From a virus: DNA of 23,355 nt. The stretch covers positions 1-23,355 of IMG/VR virus record IMGVR_UViG_3300021440_000124; one strand, written 5' to 3'. The notes beneath the pieces were generated by a model. It did not search any database, was not told the origin of the DNA, and was given only the letters and a program-made list of their open reading frames with translations. This document shows positions 739 to 16,756 of this stretch, one piece after another. Both the position numbers and the translations under genes were made by a program. Every line of letters begins with the position of its first letter. Position 1 is the stretch's first letter.

Positions 739-1722
739 GTGAGTCGCGTCAACCTGGATGGGAAGATCTGGAACGAACCGCGCGCGAAACGTCTGGCTAG
801 ACGCTACGGGTGGTCGATGCGCGAGGTCGTCGGGACCCTCGCGGCGATCTGGGACGTGGCCTACAACGCACGCTCGGCGGTTGTGTCGATCGCTGACATC
901 GACACCGCTGCGGAGACCGACGGCTTTGCGCAGAGCATGGTTGCAGAGAGCCTTGCTGACGTCATCGAAGGCGACATGTTGTGTGTTCGCCTGCGTGGAG
1001 TAACGGAGCGCATCCAGTTCCTAATCCAGCAGGCGGAAAGGGGAAAGCGCGGAGGTGAAGCGAAGGCTAAGCCAACGCCAAGCAAGCGCCAAGCGAACGC
1101 TAAGCGAACGCTAAGCCTATCTCCTTCTCCTTCTCCTTCTCCTTCTCCTTCTCCTTCTCTGTCTCTTCCTCCGGCTCTGGATCAGGATCAGATCTCAGAG
1201 AAGAATTCCGCTGCGCCTTCGGCTGGCGGGATGGTTGGGTTGGAATCTGCCATCCAGCGCAACCAGGGTGACGTCGGCCTCGCGCGCGCTAAGAAGCGCA
1301 AGCCCAGCGAGCTGACCCCGGAAGAGCAGGCCACGGCACGCGTGGTGCTGGACAAGCTCGGCAGCTACAACGGCGTGCGCTACAGCGGCACGGCTGAGCA
1401 CACGCGGCTGATCGTTCGCCACCTGCGCGAAGGCATCACCGAGCGCGACCTGCGCATGGTCATCGGCTACTGCTGCTTCGAGCTCGGCTGGCTCGAGAAG
1501 CCGGACATGTTCAAGTACCTGCGGCCTGAGACGCTGTTCGGCGCGCAGACGCTGAGCAAGTACCTCGACCCGGCGCGCACCTGGTTCGCGAAGCTGCCAC
1601 AGGACCAACCCTCGTCGAGCGCACAGGGAGCGCCGTCGGAGGATCGAATAGCCCGAGCGCTGACGTTCACGGGACCCGAGTGGGAAGAGCCGGCCTGGAT
1701 GGCCGCGGGAGGTGATGCGTGA
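739..1722 (+). CDS. Phage replisome organizer / replication initiator-like protein
   Basis: A 327-residue protein from GTG 739. The N-terminal part (about 1-100, with RLARRYGWSMREVVGTLAAIW) looks like the winged-helix region of phage replisome organizers. A basic and low-complexity linker follows (about 107-145), including six Ser-Pro repeats. The C-terminal part (about 192-286) carries the hallmark of the conserved phage C-terminal domain family seen in replisome organizers: a Leu/Trp-rich helix, then YLRPETLFG at 260-268 and a KYLDPARTWF segment. Such proteins bind the phage origin and help load the host helicase. The linker-coding DNA holds five 11-bp tandem repeats and a pyrimidine tract, an arrangement like the lambda O gene with its internal origin. 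The next gene starts at an overlapping GTGA. No helicase or loader was recognised nearby, so dependence on host helicase is inferred. Confidence 0.75.
   Translation: MSRVNLDGKIWNEPRAKRLARRYGWSMREVVGTLAAIWDVAYNARSAVVSIADIDTAAETDGFAQSMVAESLADVIEGDMLCVRLRGVTERIQFLIQQAERGKRGGEAKAKPTPSKRQANAKRTLSLSPSPSPSPSPSPSLSLPPALDQDQISEKNSAAPSAGGMVGLESAIQRNQGDVGLARAKKRKPSELTPEEQATARVVLDKLGSYNGVRYSGTAEHTRLIVRHLREGITERDLRMVIGYCCFELGWLEKPDMFKYLRPETLFGAQTLSKYLDPARTWFAKLPQDQPSSSAQGAPSEDRIARALTFTGPEWEEPAWMAAGGDA
1058..1112. repeat. Five tandem 11-bp repeats (iteron-like), putative replication origin
   Basis: Five consecutive units with no gap: AAGCGAAGGCT (1058), AAGCCAACGCC (1069), AAGCAAGCGCC (1080), AAGCGAACGCT (1091) and AAGCGAACGCT (1102), then a partial AAGCC at 1113. 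Units 4 and 5 are identical and contain the inverted arms AGCG-AA-CGCT. Eleven is not a multiple of three, so the repeat runs through all frames and does not give a repeated peptide. This argues for constraint, or recent expansion, at the DNA level. Location inside an initiator-like gene, next to a pyrimidine tract, suggests initiator binding sites spaced about one helical turn apart. Confidence 0.7.
1120..1160 (+). repeat. Hexanucleotide (TCTCCT) repeat, 41-nt pure pyrimidine tract
   Basis: Six complete TCTCCT copies (1120-1155) plus TCTCT make an uninterrupted 41-nt pyrimidine run, followed after one G by another pyrimidine stretch to 1172. It encodes Ser-Pro repeats in the linker of the initiator-like protein. 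The hexamer preserves the reading frame, so copy-number changes would alter linker length only. It lies 7 nt after the last 11-bp repeat, where a duplex-unwinding element would sit in a lambda-type origin. It is not AT-rich, so the unwinding role is inference. Confidence 0.65.
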
Positions 1723-3495: not shown

Positions 3496-3926
3496 TCCGC
3501 GGCCCGCGTCAGTCCGACCAGAACTACATCGCATCGACCTGGGTGCGGTCGCTGGCTGGCGTCGCCAACCGTCGCCTGGGGCGTCGCGGCGGTGAGATTG
3601 GCATCGCCGTCGACCAGGTGCTTGACCGCGGCGACACACGTGCGCTGATTCGGCACCAGGCCGGCAACCGGGACCACATCCTCGGCTATGTCGTGTTCGT
3701 CGAGGGCGCAGGCGTGCCGGTGGTTCACTATATCTACGTCAGACAGGACTACCGCGGACGCGGCCTGGCGACGCAGCTCCTACGCGAAGCGGGCGTCACG
3801 AGTGACAGCAGCGTCGTGTGCACGTCGCTCGGACCTGACTCGGCGCGCATTCGTAGCCGGTACCAGGGAGCGGTGTACATGCCGCTGGATGAGTTTCTGC
3901 AGCCACCGAAGGGAATCAGACCATGA
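3492..3926 (+). CDS. GNAT-family N-acetyltransferase
   Basis: A 144-residue protein from GTG 3492 (GTGA overlap). The GNAT fold is shown by a beta strand VVHYIYV (78-84) leading into the acetyl-CoA pyrophosphate loop Q85-D-Y-R-G-R-G-L-A (85-93) and helix TQLLREAG, the classical motif A. An N-terminal helix with NYIASTWVRS matches phage GNATs that begin similarly, from memory. It transfers an acetyl group from acetyl-CoA to an amine on a protein or small molecule. The substrate cannot be deduced; a host protein or a phage virion protein are both possible. The gene is coupled to the GroES-like gene by an ATGA overlap, so both would be made together. Confidence 0.8.
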   Translation: MIRGPRQSDQNYIASTWVRSLAGVANRRLGRRGGEIGIAVDQVLDRGDTRALIRHQAGNRDHILGYVVFVEGAGVPVVHYIYVRQDYRGRGLATQLLREAGVTSDSSVVCTSLGPDSARIRSRYQGAVYMPLDEFLQPPKGIRP

Positions 3927-4297
3927 ATCAGACTGCCAATGTCGAGATGCTTTACGATAGGTTGCTCGTGCGCGTCGTGGGCGAGTCCAACCGCACCAAG
4001 TCCGGCTTGTTCATCCCGGACATGGCCGTGCAGAACACGCCGTACCTGCGCGCCGAGGTCATCGAAGTCGGCCACGGTCGCGTTGCGATGAGCGGCGAGG
4101 TGGTGCCGCTGCGCGTGAAGGCGGGTGACGTCGTGGTCTTCTTCCGTGTCAGCGGCGGTGAGCAGCTCGTGTTCCCGTCGGACACCGGCGAAGACCTGCT
4201 CATCATCCGCGAGAACCACGTAGCGATGATTCTGCGGGACTTGCCCAAGGACACCGGCCTCGTCAACCAGGACGGCGCTGCCGTGGTCGTGCAGTGA
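3923..4297 (+). CDS. GroES-like co-chaperonin (Cpn10)
   Basis: A 124-residue protein, slightly longer than the usual 95-100 for GroES. The order of Cpn10 elements is clear: LYDRLLVRVV (10-19) as first strand, a mobile-loop region (about 20-37) with SGLFIP in place of the usual GGI(V/L)L, then AEVIEVGHGRV (44-54), VPLRVKAGDVVVF (61-73), and EDLLIIRENHVAMIL (90-104). It should form a heptameric lid on a GroEL-type chaperonin, here presumably the host's, since no GroEL is present in the window. By analogy with T4 gp31 it may adapt the host chamber for folding the phage capsid protein. The C-terminal extension (DLPKDTGLVNQDGAAVVVQ) after the last strand is extra to the family. Confidence 0.88.
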   Translation: MNQTANVEMLYDRLLVRVVGESNRTKSGLFIPDMAVQNTPYLRAEVIEVGHGRVAMSGEVVPLRVKAGDVVVFFRVSGGEQLVFPSDTGEDLLIIRENHVAMILRDLPKDTGLVNQDGAAVVVQ

Positions 4298-6930: not shown

Positions 6931-8934
6931 GTGCGCCGCTCACGCCGTAAGTCCGACGAGGACGGCGAGCACCTCGGCACGAGCCGGTGGTGGTGCTGCG
7001 AAGGTGACCAGGCTGCGTCTGCCCTGTGGGGCTGGATTGACCGCCTGAAGCGCCACCACCGCGTGCAATCCGCGATGGATGCCGTGTGGGAAGCGGTCTA
7101 CCGCGACGTTCCCATCACCGTAGCCCGCGACGGCTCGGCCCTGGTGCGTCGAGCGCAGACCGACAGCCGCATCAAGCTCGCCAAGAGCATGGTTGGCACG
7201 ATGGCCAGCCGCATCAGCAAGCGGCGGCCCATGCCGACCATCAGCGCCGACGATGCGACGTGGAGCGAGAAGCGCTACGCCAAGAAGGCATCGCGTGTGC
7301 TGCGTCGCAAGATGGGCCAGTCCATCGTAGAGCGCCTGTGCCCGAAGGTCGTGCGCGATGGCCTCATCCGTGGCACCGGCGTCGCCAAGGTCTACCGCGA
7401 TGGCGGCGACGTAGCCATCGAGCGCGTGCCGCGCCGGGAGATCGTCGTCGACCCGACCGAGGCGCGCTACGGCACGCCCCGCGTCATGGGGCAGATCAAG
7501 CGCGTCAGCAAGGACGTGCTGGCCGAGATGTTCCCGGACCACCGTGACGCCATCATGGCCACGGCGGCGGCCACTCGCGAGGAGTGGGAGCCCTTCGAGG
7601 GCGAGATGGAGTCGGACCAGGTCGAGGTTGCCGAAGGCTGGCACCTGCCGAGCGGGCCCAACGCCGAGGACGGAAAGCACGTCATCGCCCTGCGTGGCCA
7701 CCTGCTCATGTGTGAGGAGTGGGAGCGCCCCCGCTTCCCGTTCGCCTTCTTCCACTGGTGCGCGCCCGTCGACGGATTCTGGGGCACGGGCCTCGTTGAA
7801 GAGGCAGCGCCGACGCAGAAGGAAGTCAACGACACGCTGGCCGGCATGGGCGAGAACATCAGCGCAGCTCTGGCGCTCAAGGTGTTCGCGTTCCGTGGTG
7901 CCAACGGCATGAACGTCAACAAGCATCATCTCAAGGCCAAGGGGCCCGCGGTGATCGAGGTCGACGGCCAGGCACCGCAGTACGTGGCCCCCACGCCCTT
8001 CAACCAGGCCACGCTGGAATACCTCAAGTGGCGCATCCAACAGGCCTATGAGATGTGCGGCATCTCGCAGGCGTCGGCTGCGTCTAAGAACCCGCTGGGG
8101 TCCAACGCATCGGGCAGGGCGCTCGATACGATGTATGACCTCGAGTCGGACCGCTTCGCTGACGTCGAGAGTGAATATGCCCAGTTCCGCGTAGAACTCG
8201 GCCTGCTCACGCTCGACGAGGCGCGCGCAATTGCCGACGACGCATCGGAAGGCGAGCTACCCGAGAGCACGAAGGTCGCGCCGTGGATTGACGAAATCGA
8301 CTGGTGCGCCATCGACCCCGACTCGGGCAACTACCACCTGGTGCTAGAGCCCATCAACTTCCTGCCTGATGCGAAGAGCGGCAAGCTCGCCACGGTCCGC
8401 GAGATGGCGGACGCCGGCCTGCTTTCCAACCCGATGCAGACGGCGGCGCTGTTCGACGAGCCTGACATCGCGGCAGCCAACCGACACATGCTCGGCCCAT
8501 ACCGCCGCATCGAGAAGTGGCTCGAGGACCTGGCCAACGCGGACATCCCGCTCGAGGACTGCGTCCCCACGCCGTACATGCTCCGCGTGCCCAACCTGGC
8601 GAAAGAGATGCTGCTCGGTGAGCTCGACATGGTCGAGGCCGAGATGGACAGCACCCGGCGCACCAAGGACGAGGACGAGGTCCTGGGCCGCTTCCGCTGG
8701 GCTGCCGACATGCTGAAGAGCGCCGAAGAGGAGCTCGCGCAGCAGGAGGCAGCGAAGGCACCTGTGCCAGCACCCGGCGCGATGCCGATGCCCGCCGACC
8801 CGGCAGCAGCCGCAGCCCCGGCGATGCCGATGGACCCGACGATGATGCCGCCCCCGATGCCCGGAAACGGCATGGGCGGCTTGGACGCGATGGCGGCGGC
8901 TGGATTGCCGCTTGAACAGGGAGTCATCCAGTGA
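6931..8934 (+). CDS. Portal protein
   Basis: A 667-residue protein from GTG 6931, the only in-frame start before ATG 7075. Size, position between TerL and scaffold, and sequence all fit a podovirus-type portal, the dodecameric ring through which DNA enters and leaves the head. The most telling segment is 281-300, DGFWGTG followed by EEAAPTQKEVN, which matches the stem region of portals where a Gly-rich turn precedes a long helix and an N-rich motif. A beta-rich wing region (150-260) comes before it. The C-terminus (about 612-667) is a Met/Pro/Ala-rich disordered tail after a helix EELAQQEAAKA. The scaffold gene starts at an overlapping GTGA, suggesting coupled expression. Confidence 0.88.
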   Translation: MRRSRRKSDEDGEHLGTSRWWCCEGDQAASALWGWIDRLKRHHRVQSAMDAVWEAVYRDVPITVARDGSALVRRAQTDSRIKLAKSMVGTMASRISKRRPMPTISADDATWSEKRYAKKASRVLRRKMGQSIVERLCPKVVRDGLIRGTGVAKVYRDGGDVAIERVPRREIVVDPTEARYGTPRVMGQIKRVSKDVLAEMFPDHRDAIMATAAATREEWEPFEGEMESDQVEVAEGWHLPSGPNAEDGKHVIALRGHLLMCEEWERPRFPFAFFHWCAPVDGFWGTGLVEEAAPTQKEVNDTLAGMGENISAALALKVFAFRGANGMNVNKHHLKAKGPAVIEVDGQAPQYVAPTPFNQATLEYLKWRIQQAYEMCGISQASAASKNPLGSNASGRALDTMYDLESDRFADVESEYAQFRVELGLLTLDEARAIADDASEGELPESTKVAPWIDEIDWCAIDPDSGNYHLVLEPINFLPDAKSGKLATVREMADAGLLSNPMQTAALFDEPDIAAANRHMLGPYRRIEKWLEDLANADIPLEDCVPTPYMLRVPNLAKEMLLGELDMVEAEMDSTRRTKDEDEVLGRFRWAADMLKSAEEELAQQEAAKAPVPAPGAMPMPADPAAAAAPAMPMDPTMMPPPMPGNGMGGLDAMAAAGLPLEQGVIQ

Positions 8935-14492: not shown

Positions 14493-15488
14493 ATGATCTT
14501 CCTCGATGAAACCGTCGACGCCCAACGGGAGGTTCCATTCCACCTCCCGGACAGCACTGACCCGCTCACCGGCGTCATCGGGCACACCTTCGCGACTGGC
14601 GAAGTGCTCATCCGCATCCCTGGCGCTGGCTACGTCAACGCCGACGTGTCGCGCGTGGTCGAGAAGGGATACGGCGACTACGCGCTGCAGCTCACCGACG
14701 CCCAGGTGGCGACGGCGGGCAAGGTCTACATCCGCGTGTCCGTCACCGGCGCGCAGCCGTGGACGAGCTTCGAGGACATCATCAGCCGTTCCGACTTCGT
14801 GTCGGGCGGCGTCGTCACGCCAGCCACGCAGCGGACCTTCACGCTGGCCGACTTGCGGGACATGGCCCTGCGCCGCGCGGGCGTCGAAGAGTCCGGCGAC
14901 CTGACTGCCGCTGTCCTCAACGACTTCATCAACGGAGCGCTGGCCGAGCTCTGGGACATCTTGAAGGCCAAGGCTGACGAGCGGCTGCTTACCTCGACCA
15001 CGCTGTCTGTGACCTCGGGCAACGCGAACGCGTCGCTCCCGGCGGGCTTCTACACGCTGCGCAAGCTCGAGATCGTCGACACCGGCGTATCCAGCGGCTA
15101 CCGGCAGCTCCGGTCCATCTCACTGGACGCCACGCACCGCTACGGCACCGTGGTAAGCAAGCGGTACCGGTACTGGCTGAACGCCTACAACATCACGCTG
15201 GTCCCGACGCCCAACGCAGCGGAAACCCTGCGCCTCTGGTACGTGCCCGTTGCCCCGTACCTCGTCGACGACACGGACAGCATCGACGGCTGGAACGGCT
15301 ACGAGGAGCTCGTCACGGCGCTCGTGTTCAAGCGCATCCTGGCCCGCCAGGACCTGAGCACGTCGGACGTCGAGCGCGAGTGTGCCCGGCTGGCCGACCG
15401 CATCGCAGCGGCCTCGGATGGCCGCGACGCCGAGCCCTTCTACCTCAACGACCCGCAGCCTGACTTCTACGACGACGAGGTGGACTGA
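14493..15488 (+). CDS. Head-tail adaptor fused to an N-terminal virion domain
   Basis: A 331-residue protein of two parts. The C-terminal part (about 115-331) resembles podovirus head-tail adaptors: helices LRDMALRRAGVEE and LNDFINGALAELWDILKAK, strands with PAGFYTLRKLEIVD, then LRLWYVPVAPYLVDDTDSI and a final helical GYEELVTALVFKRIL, the pattern of the adaptor ring under the portal. The N-terminal part (about 1-98) looks like a separate beta domain often found alone in phage virion proteins (GEVLIRIPGAGY, YGDYALQLTDAQ, GKVYIRVSVTG). The fusion would place an extra domain on the outside of the neck. Assignment comes from pattern and from position before the tail genes. Confidence 0.68.
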   Translation: MIFLDETVDAQREVPFHLPDSTDPLTGVIGHTFATGEVLIRIPGAGYVNADVSRVVEKGYGDYALQLTDAQVATAGKVYIRVSVTGAQPWTSFEDIISRSDFVSGGVVTPATQRTFTLADLRDMALRRAGVEESGDLTAAVLNDFINGALAELWDILKAKADERLLTSTTLSVTSGNANASLPAGFYTLRKLEIVDTGVSSGYRQLRSISLDATHRYGTVVSKRYRYWLNAYNITLVPTPNAAETLRLWYVPVAPYLVDDTDSIDGWNGYEELVTALVFKRILARQDLSTSDVERECARLADRIAAASDGRDAEPFYLNDPQPDFYDDEVD

Positions 15489-16756
15489 TGCCCGCGAAGC
15501 GCAAGTCACCGCCACGGAAGCGCTCGACGTTGCTCGGCAGCAGCGTCGAGGACGTGGCGACCTCGCGCGCGTTGGATGACATCACGGCAGCCGTCAACCG
15601 CCTCGAAGACATCGCCGTCTTCACCACGGGCAAGGACGGCTACGTGCCCGCGCCGGGCACGGATGCCGCCGACACTGACGTGCTGCGTGCTGACGGCACC
15701 TGGGGCGCAGGTGGCGGCGGCACTGGGCCCGCTGGACCTGCCGGGCCGACTGGCGCGACCGGCGCAACGGGGCCCGCTGGCGCTACGGGAGCAACCGGCG
15801 CAACTGGAGCCGATGGCCCTGCCGGCCCTGCGCTGTTCATGCTGGCCGCCGACGGCGAACCCGGCGAGCTCGGCCCGCCTGGACCCCCCGGCCCGCAAGG
15901 CAGCCCAGGCAGCGCGGGCAGCACCGGAGCGCAGGGCGCACCTGGTCCTGCGGTGTATCTCGAGGCGGAACCCGGAGCCGATGGCGACATGGGACCACCG
16001 GGGCCTGTCGGTCCTGCGGGTACCGCGGGCAGCACTGGCGCTCAGGGCCCAGCTGGGCCTGCCATCTACCTCGAAGCAGAGCAGGGCGCAGACGGCGACA
16101 TGGGACCTCCCGGTCCCGCTGGTGTCGCTGGCGCTGCAGGTGCGCAGGGCATCCAGGGCGTCCCTGGTCCCGCTCTCTTCTTCCTCGCAGATGCAGGCGA
16201 CGATGGCGAGCGCGGACCTCCTGGTGCTGCAGGTTCCAACGGTGCCGCGGGTGCAGCCGGAAGCGCTGGACCGATGGGGCCTCCCGGCGACGACGGCCCA
16301 GCCTGCGATTGCATGCTGATTCCTGGACCTGCGGGCCCCGTCGGCGCGACCGGTCCATCTGGCAGCGGCGGCGCGTCGGCCACGGTCGTCGAGGTCAACG
16401 TCAGCGGAACGCCTGTCACGCGCGGCACGTTCACGATCACCAACGGCACCATCACCGCAACTAGCAAGGTCCTCGTGTGGCAGTCCTATGGCCCCTATAC
16501 GGGCAAGGGCACCGTTACCAAGGACGAGGGCGAGATGGATCCCATCGTGGCGCTCGCTGTCCCCGCGGCTGGCTCGGCCCTGGTTCGATGGCACACGGAA
16601 CACGTTGTTGTCGAGTCGCCCGTCTTGACCACTGCGCCAAGTCTCGGCGGCGGCACTGCAGCCAACAGCGGAACCAACCGCGACCCGCGCGCGACGGCGC
16701 TTCGTCTCGGGCGCGTCAAAGGAAATGTGAAGTTCGCGTACGTCGTCTTCACCTAG
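15488..16756 (+). CDS. Collagen-like tail fibre protein
   Basis: A 422-residue protein starting at ATG 15488 (TGATG overlap). After a basic start and a helix that may trimerise ([17 protein letters not shown]), a motif VLRADGTWG leads into long Gly-X-Y repeats (about 79-295), expected to form a collagen-type triple helix. The repeats are broken at regular places by GPA followed by a hydrophobic and acidic stretch: LFMLAADGE (116), [10 protein letters not shown] (156), [10 protein letters not shown] (193) and [10 protein letters not shown] (230), plus CDCMLI (273). The C-terminal 125 residues form a beta-rich globular domain ([13 protein letters not shown] to FAYVVFT). It is probably a trimeric fibre or head/tail appendage. 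Collagen repeats without prolyl hydroxylation are known in bacteria and phages. Confidence 0.82.
15836..16310 (+). repeat. Repeating module in the collagen-like gene
   Basis: The Gly-X-Y interruptions recur at protein spacings of 40, 37, 37 and 43 residues. Modules 2 and 3 are nearly identical in protein ([16 protein letters not shown]), and the fifth interruption is Cys-containing (ACDCML). This indicates module duplication with divergence and not simple triplet slippage. Coordinates mark the first to the last interruption approximately. Confidence 0.6.

Follow-up and report, generated by a model that had tools for sequence, protein, structure and literature searches.

The window analysed here, the whole stretch of 23,355 nucleotides of a viral record (IMG/VR IMGVR_UViG_3300021440_000124), contains a gene for a replication initiator of the replisome-organizer type, with a Shine-Dalgarno-like AGGAG ahead of it at 727-731. 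Elsewhere in the window, a phage-encoded GroES-like co-chaperonin (Cpn10, E=3.7e-16) is found at 3923-4297, and collagen-like Gly-X-Y repeats at 15488-16756 probably belong to a tail-fibre protein. The features of the initiator gene are the following (evidence in brackets).

739-1722, plus strand: replication initiator gene, replisome-organizer-type (GTG start, 327 aa)
751-1053, plus strand: part coding for the folded N-terminal domain, aa 5-105 (AF2 model, winged-helix matches, phrog_9474)
1058-1116, plus strand: iteron array, five 11-bp units AAGCGAACGCY and a sixth AAGC core (Tandem Repeats Finder, synonymous null, AAGC phasing)
1120-1172, plus strand: strand-asymmetric hexamer tract (TCTCCT)n, predicted DNA unwinding element (Tandem Repeats Finder, codon bias, stability)
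1208-1229, plus strand: tentative candidate for an imperfect hairpin, CCGCTGCGCC-TTC-GGCTGGCGG (position of the hairpin in relatives)
1345-1566, plus strand: part coding for the Phg_2220_C domain, aa 203-276 (Pfam match, AF2 pLDDT about 90)

The five units of the array occupy 1058-1112, and Tandem Repeats Finder (TRF) delimited 1058-1116 as a repeat of period 11 (5.4 copies, 83% match, score 76). AAGC starts at 1058, 1069, 1080, 1091, 1102 and 1113, and this spacing of exactly 11 bp, one helical turn, makes the motif rotate through all three reading frames; it occurs 8 times in the 81 nt at the array vs 5 times in the remaining 904 nt of the gene. Coordinates, TRF and AAGC phasing agree with the initial annotation, which had described five 11-bp units across the three frames of the linker, to which a sixth AAGC core at 1113 is now added. 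Units 4 and 5 are identical as described (AAGCGAACGCT, with the arms AGCG-AA-CGCT), but the other three units have only imperfect inverted arms, and relatives do not preserve the arms. The 7-nt gap between array and tract (1113-1119, AAGCCTA) and the 41-nt pure pyrimidine core (1120-1160) were also exact; TRF resolved 1120-1159 as period 6 (TCTCCT, 6.7 copies, 100%), and the tract extends beyond the core, where it had been taken to end, as TCT/CTT codons to about 1172. The second-longest pyrimidine run in the window measures 14 nt, so that the core is three times longer than any other. Array and tract have the two top TRF scores of the 23 kb (76 and 80), whereas 60 sequences simulated from the window with a first-order Markov model scored at most 65. 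Among all 50-nt stretches of the window, purine content is highest (78%) at 1028-1077, just before and into the iterons and opposite in sense to the pyrimidine tract.

The stability of the duplex was computed from nearest-neighbour energies over all 23 kb. The minima of the window start at 1117 (45 bp), 1111 (60 bp) and 1118 (90 bp), although at the 30-bp scale ten windows elsewhere are weaker than the tract. The tract is thus a low-stability element, though with a GC content of about 50% it is not AT-rich by composition. The initial annotation had set it against the AT-rich stretch of lambda, and this contrast is correct for absolute composition but not for function: being the least stable 45-, 60- and 90-bp stretch, the tract is better regarded as the unwinding element of a GC-rich genome than as an exception.

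Residues 203-276 of the initiator match Pfam family PF09524 (Phg_2220_C; E=2.9e-10, 40.5 bits vs a gathering cut-off of 27), and the protein also matches phrog_428 and phrog_9474 ("replication initiation protein"), the latter covering aa 7-91. PF04492 (Phage_rep_O), which lambda O itself matches at 5.7e-36, was not found in the protein up to E=1, which places it outside the lambda O family. In an AlphaFold model built from six sequences, the protein is folded at residues 5-105, disordered at 106-187 and folded again in the C-domain (194-285); array and tract encode residues of about 107-145, within the disordered linker. The N-terminal domain, with a pLDDT mostly between 78 and 91 per 10-residue block, gave weak winged-helix matches (VIA-align; best Z 5.5 to the winged-helix domain of MCM8, also Cdc6 and MarR proteins) and no significant structural match in Foldseek. 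It is probably a winged-helix domain that binds the iterons. The Phg_2220_C domain is presumed to be the part that recruits the replisome or helicase, and Pfam and phrog searches recognised no helicase-loader gene downstream of the initiator.

More than 200 loci were obtained from protein-guided scans with C-domain alignments, which were used instead of a nine-sequence alignment that was too diverged as a search query; one further relative (L338) came from two sets of about 400 genomes, taken from the groups to which the closest relatives belong, and a search of viral contigs with the single window protein found no relative. As the relatives were recruited by C-domain similarity, other families are sampled only as single anchors. 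Four homologues have a similar N-terminal domain (L094, L095, L175 and L338; overall identity to the window protein 44%, 42% and 39% for the first three), and when they were checked for repeats at the same linker position, as the initial annotation had advised, AAGC cores were found there 10-13 bp apart (11 bp in L094 at 820-864; 11, 12 and 11 in L095; 13, 11 and 11 in L175; 12 and 10, read by eye, in L338). In two relatives whose N-termini are of other types, different iterons occupy the same place: GTTACG repeats with a purine tract in L174, the C-domain of which is 57% identical, and CCACCAGC repeats followed by (GCTCCT)8.8 in L014. The type of iteron therefore follows the N-terminal domain. 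The tract is less stable than its own gene in L175, L338, L174 and L095, less clearly so in L094 and not in L014 (0-21% of gene windows weaker). A block AAGAATTCCGCTRCGCC...CGGCTRGCGG, located between tract and C-domain, is common to several sequences (window 1203-1229; L094 ~957-983; L095 ~2748-2775; L174 ~1563-1594). It is present in L174 despite the different N-terminus, iterons and tract, and is possibly a recombination junction.

A comparable layout is known from several phages. The lambda origin, inside gene O, consists of four 18-bp iterons followed by a 38-bp AT-rich region (PMC3349717), and O binds the iterons as well as single strands of the AT-rich region (PMC7466680). The window resembles it in the position of the array in the middle of the initiator gene and in the order of iterons and a weak, strand-asymmetric stretch, but differs in the protein family (PF09524 instead of PF04492), in the repeats (direct AAGC repeats of 11 bp, where lambda has inverted ones of 18-19 bp) and in the tract (pyrimidines of about 50% GC instead of AT-rich). 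In SPP1, theta replication of which has been reconstituted in vitro, the replisome organizer gp38 binds direct repeats at oriL in gene 38, next to an AT-rich unwinding element (PMC6316719); compared by layout, direct repeats within the initiator's own gene together with an unwinding element are common to both, whereas SPP1 has two origins and its element is AT-rich. Rep2009 of Tuc2009 and ORF13 of TP901-1 each bind a repeat-rich region within their own gene, and these regions were shown to act as origins (PMC8965321). Tuc2009 rep, annotated "contains origin of replication", has CAACCAAATGN / CAACCAAATG repeats spaced by 11 bp and then AGGAT/AGGTT pentamers, i.e., like the window, 11-bp repeats followed by a short-period tract (of 5 nt in Tuc2009), although Tuc2009 and TP901-1 are low-GC lactococcal phages with DnaD-like proteins and a purine-rich tract. 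For the Francisella phage KIRK, a lambda-like putative origin has been proposed inside a Phg_2220_C gene (PMC7924643); KIRK shares the C-terminal family with the window but is a single, AT-rich case, and the part of its description considered here contains no family-wide pattern, GC-rich form or hairpin.

The initial annotation had proposed a candidate origin laid out like that in lambda gene O. This proposal gains support from the relatives, from the layout of Tuc2009 and from the tests for selection at the DNA level given below. Array and tract both lie within 739-1722, a gene assigned to initiators by its PF09524 and phrog matches, and with high confidence we regard them as a putative intragenic replication origin of the lambda/SPP1 type, in a version for GC-rich DNA. 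The winged-helix-like N-terminal domain would bind the AAGC-core iterons every 11 bp on one face of the helix, and the loaded array would strain the DNA and open the adjoining pyrimidine tract, the weakest duplex of the window; the C-terminal Phg_2220_C domain may then help to recruit the replicative helicase to the strand thus exposed, after which theta replication would begin. Cumulative GC skew, suggested at first annotation as a check, has no inflection at the array (1.1 kb) and peaks at 7,967, which is uninformative as the record is a fragment; the skew extremes of the L014 contig, which may also be a fragment, do not coincide with its tract. If the reading is correct, the disordered linker of the initiator is where origins could be located, from sequence alone, across a large family of phages and prophages that have not been cultured.

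The repeats might instead be an autoregulatory operator, through which the initiator controls its own expression or copy number while replication starts elsewhere, and the control sites of plasmids offer a precedent, as their iterons often serve this second purpose. No intrinsic terminators, sigma-70 promoters, Rfam families or tRNAs were found near the array, and with no promoter-like site there an operator could regulate only as a roadblock. An operator also leaves unexplained the adjacent low-stability tract, which keeps its position while its sequence changes, and the Tuc2009 origin with the same layout; we consider this alternative improbable.

Still less likely is an explanation at the protein level or by neutral processes, in which a linker of low complexity (SP repeats) that is prone to slippage, together with a local duplication of recent date, would have produced the repeats with no function of the DNA. 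The tract does encode a Ser-Pro dipeptide repeat, close relatives have Pro-rich linkers, and the perfect hexamer copies look recently expanded. However, a period of 11 bp cannot preserve a peptide, and when codons were shuffled synonymously inside the gene 739-1722, leaving the protein unchanged, the observed self-match was reached in 0/1000 permutations at lag 11 and in 0/1000 at lag 6, which upholds the original statement that a protein repeat does not explain the units. In the tract, 15/16 codons end in T vs 35/312 in the rest of the gene (p=1e-12), and T-ending codons are likewise frequent in the tracts of GC-rich relatives (16/16 in L014, 12/16 in L095, 12/16 in L175 and 9/16 in L094), although the peptides encoded differ across the window and these relatives (SP, VPDP, AP). 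The AAGC phasing, moreover, recurs in independent sequences. These comparisons indicate that selection acts on the DNA of the linker, beyond the protein, and a GC-rich phage would thus build an unwinding element within coding sequence through T-ending codons.

The neutral explanation also fails to account for the lack of such arrays in control ORFs of the same loci. With the synonymous null applied to 70 diverged Phg_2220_C linkers, arrays were found in 50 at a family-wise p<=0.05 (20 missed this level) and in 33 at p<=0.01, vs 1/63 and 0/63, respectively, of the control long ORFs. Among the single lag tests, 157/1890 passed p<=0.01 in the linkers vs 6/1728 in the control ORFs, and 11 passed in the C-domain part of the same genes. 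Enrichment is seen, among others, at lags 5 and 6 (roughly half a turn of the helix), 11 (a full turn) and 22-24 (two turns), from which we infer that array periods are tied to the DNA helix; lags 10, 15, 18 and 20 are also enriched and are partly multiples of short tracts. Across the family, relatives that are homologous in the N-terminal domain have about threefold more repeated 5-mers in common than those that are not (0.103 vs 0.030, at an equal C-domain identity of 45-60%). Iterons lie upstream of the tract in 14/20 clusters with both elements, an order test made less clear-cut by lags 10, 15 and 20, which tracts of 5-nt period also produce as multiples.

The least credible alternative is that the tract acts through a triplex (H-DNA), which the initial annotation had considered possible, or through another special structure rather than simple low stability. 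Its 41-nt pure pyrimidine run speaks for this. However, (TCTCCT)n does not form a mirror repeat, and the tracts of relatives (GCTCCT, TCCGGATCCGGT, GTTCCG) are not homopyrimidine but contain 18-38% top-strand purines (L014, L094, L095, L175, L338) or are purine-rich (84% in L174). What the tracts have more in common is low stability relative to the gene, if only weakly so in L094 and L014. An H-DNA element would be a homopurine-homopyrimidine mirror repeat; as read from the sequence, the run is homopyrimidine but lacks the mirror symmetry (TTCTCC vs TTCCTC).

Downstream of the tract, a hairpin that begins with GTC and ends with GAC was detected in 21/71 clusters vs 1.2 expected from flanking DNA (synonymous permutations averaged 1.7 and never exceeded 5). 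The common form is TTGTCGGG-NAAN-CCCGAC, i.e., GTCGGG-NAAN-CCCGAC, with examples in L234-L313 (e.g., L238, L235, L296), L039, L040, L042, L166 and L175, the last with GTCGGC-AAA-GCCGAC (p=0.03); these examples were selected by pairing, and covariation among them was therefore not counted. A scan of viral contigs for the exact pattern gave 98 stretches, and most of the 80 retrieved follow immediately on a short-period tract, in ORFs that are 200-400 codons long; the tract is within the top 5% of its locus in 24/40 hairpin clusters, and Phg_2220_C was found in 8/9 tested hairpin-bearing proteins. The hairpin usually encodes LSG-K/N-PD in one frame, so its conservation may partly be that of a peptide or reflect common descent. 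In the window, the hairpin at 1208-1229 is not significant (p=0.37) and is not claimed, and neither is the C6/G6 hairpin of L338 significant; the counterpart of the window hairpin in L174 has p=0.023.

Taken with the survey, these patterns lead us to favour slightly the view that Phg_2220_C initiators share a portable linker origin of three parts, namely iterons spaced by one or two turns of the helix, a strand-asymmetric tract with a period near half a turn (5-7 nt) and, just before the C-domain, the hairpin in its common form or a compensated variant. Each part would vary in sequence on its own, with the iterons following the N-terminal domain, and GC-rich phages would rebuild the tract with T-ending codons. 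If this is true, the hairpin would be an undescribed third origin element, e.g., a priming or helicase-loading site. The window also makes it testable to what extent iterons, unwinding tract and initiator domains are independently exchangeable.

In lambda gene O (L231, ~1158-1192), inverted arms GTCAGAG...CTCTGAC, which are likewise GTC/GAC-ended, follow the AT-rich stretch at the corresponding place, and the lambda tract itself contains AAAAGAA heptamers.
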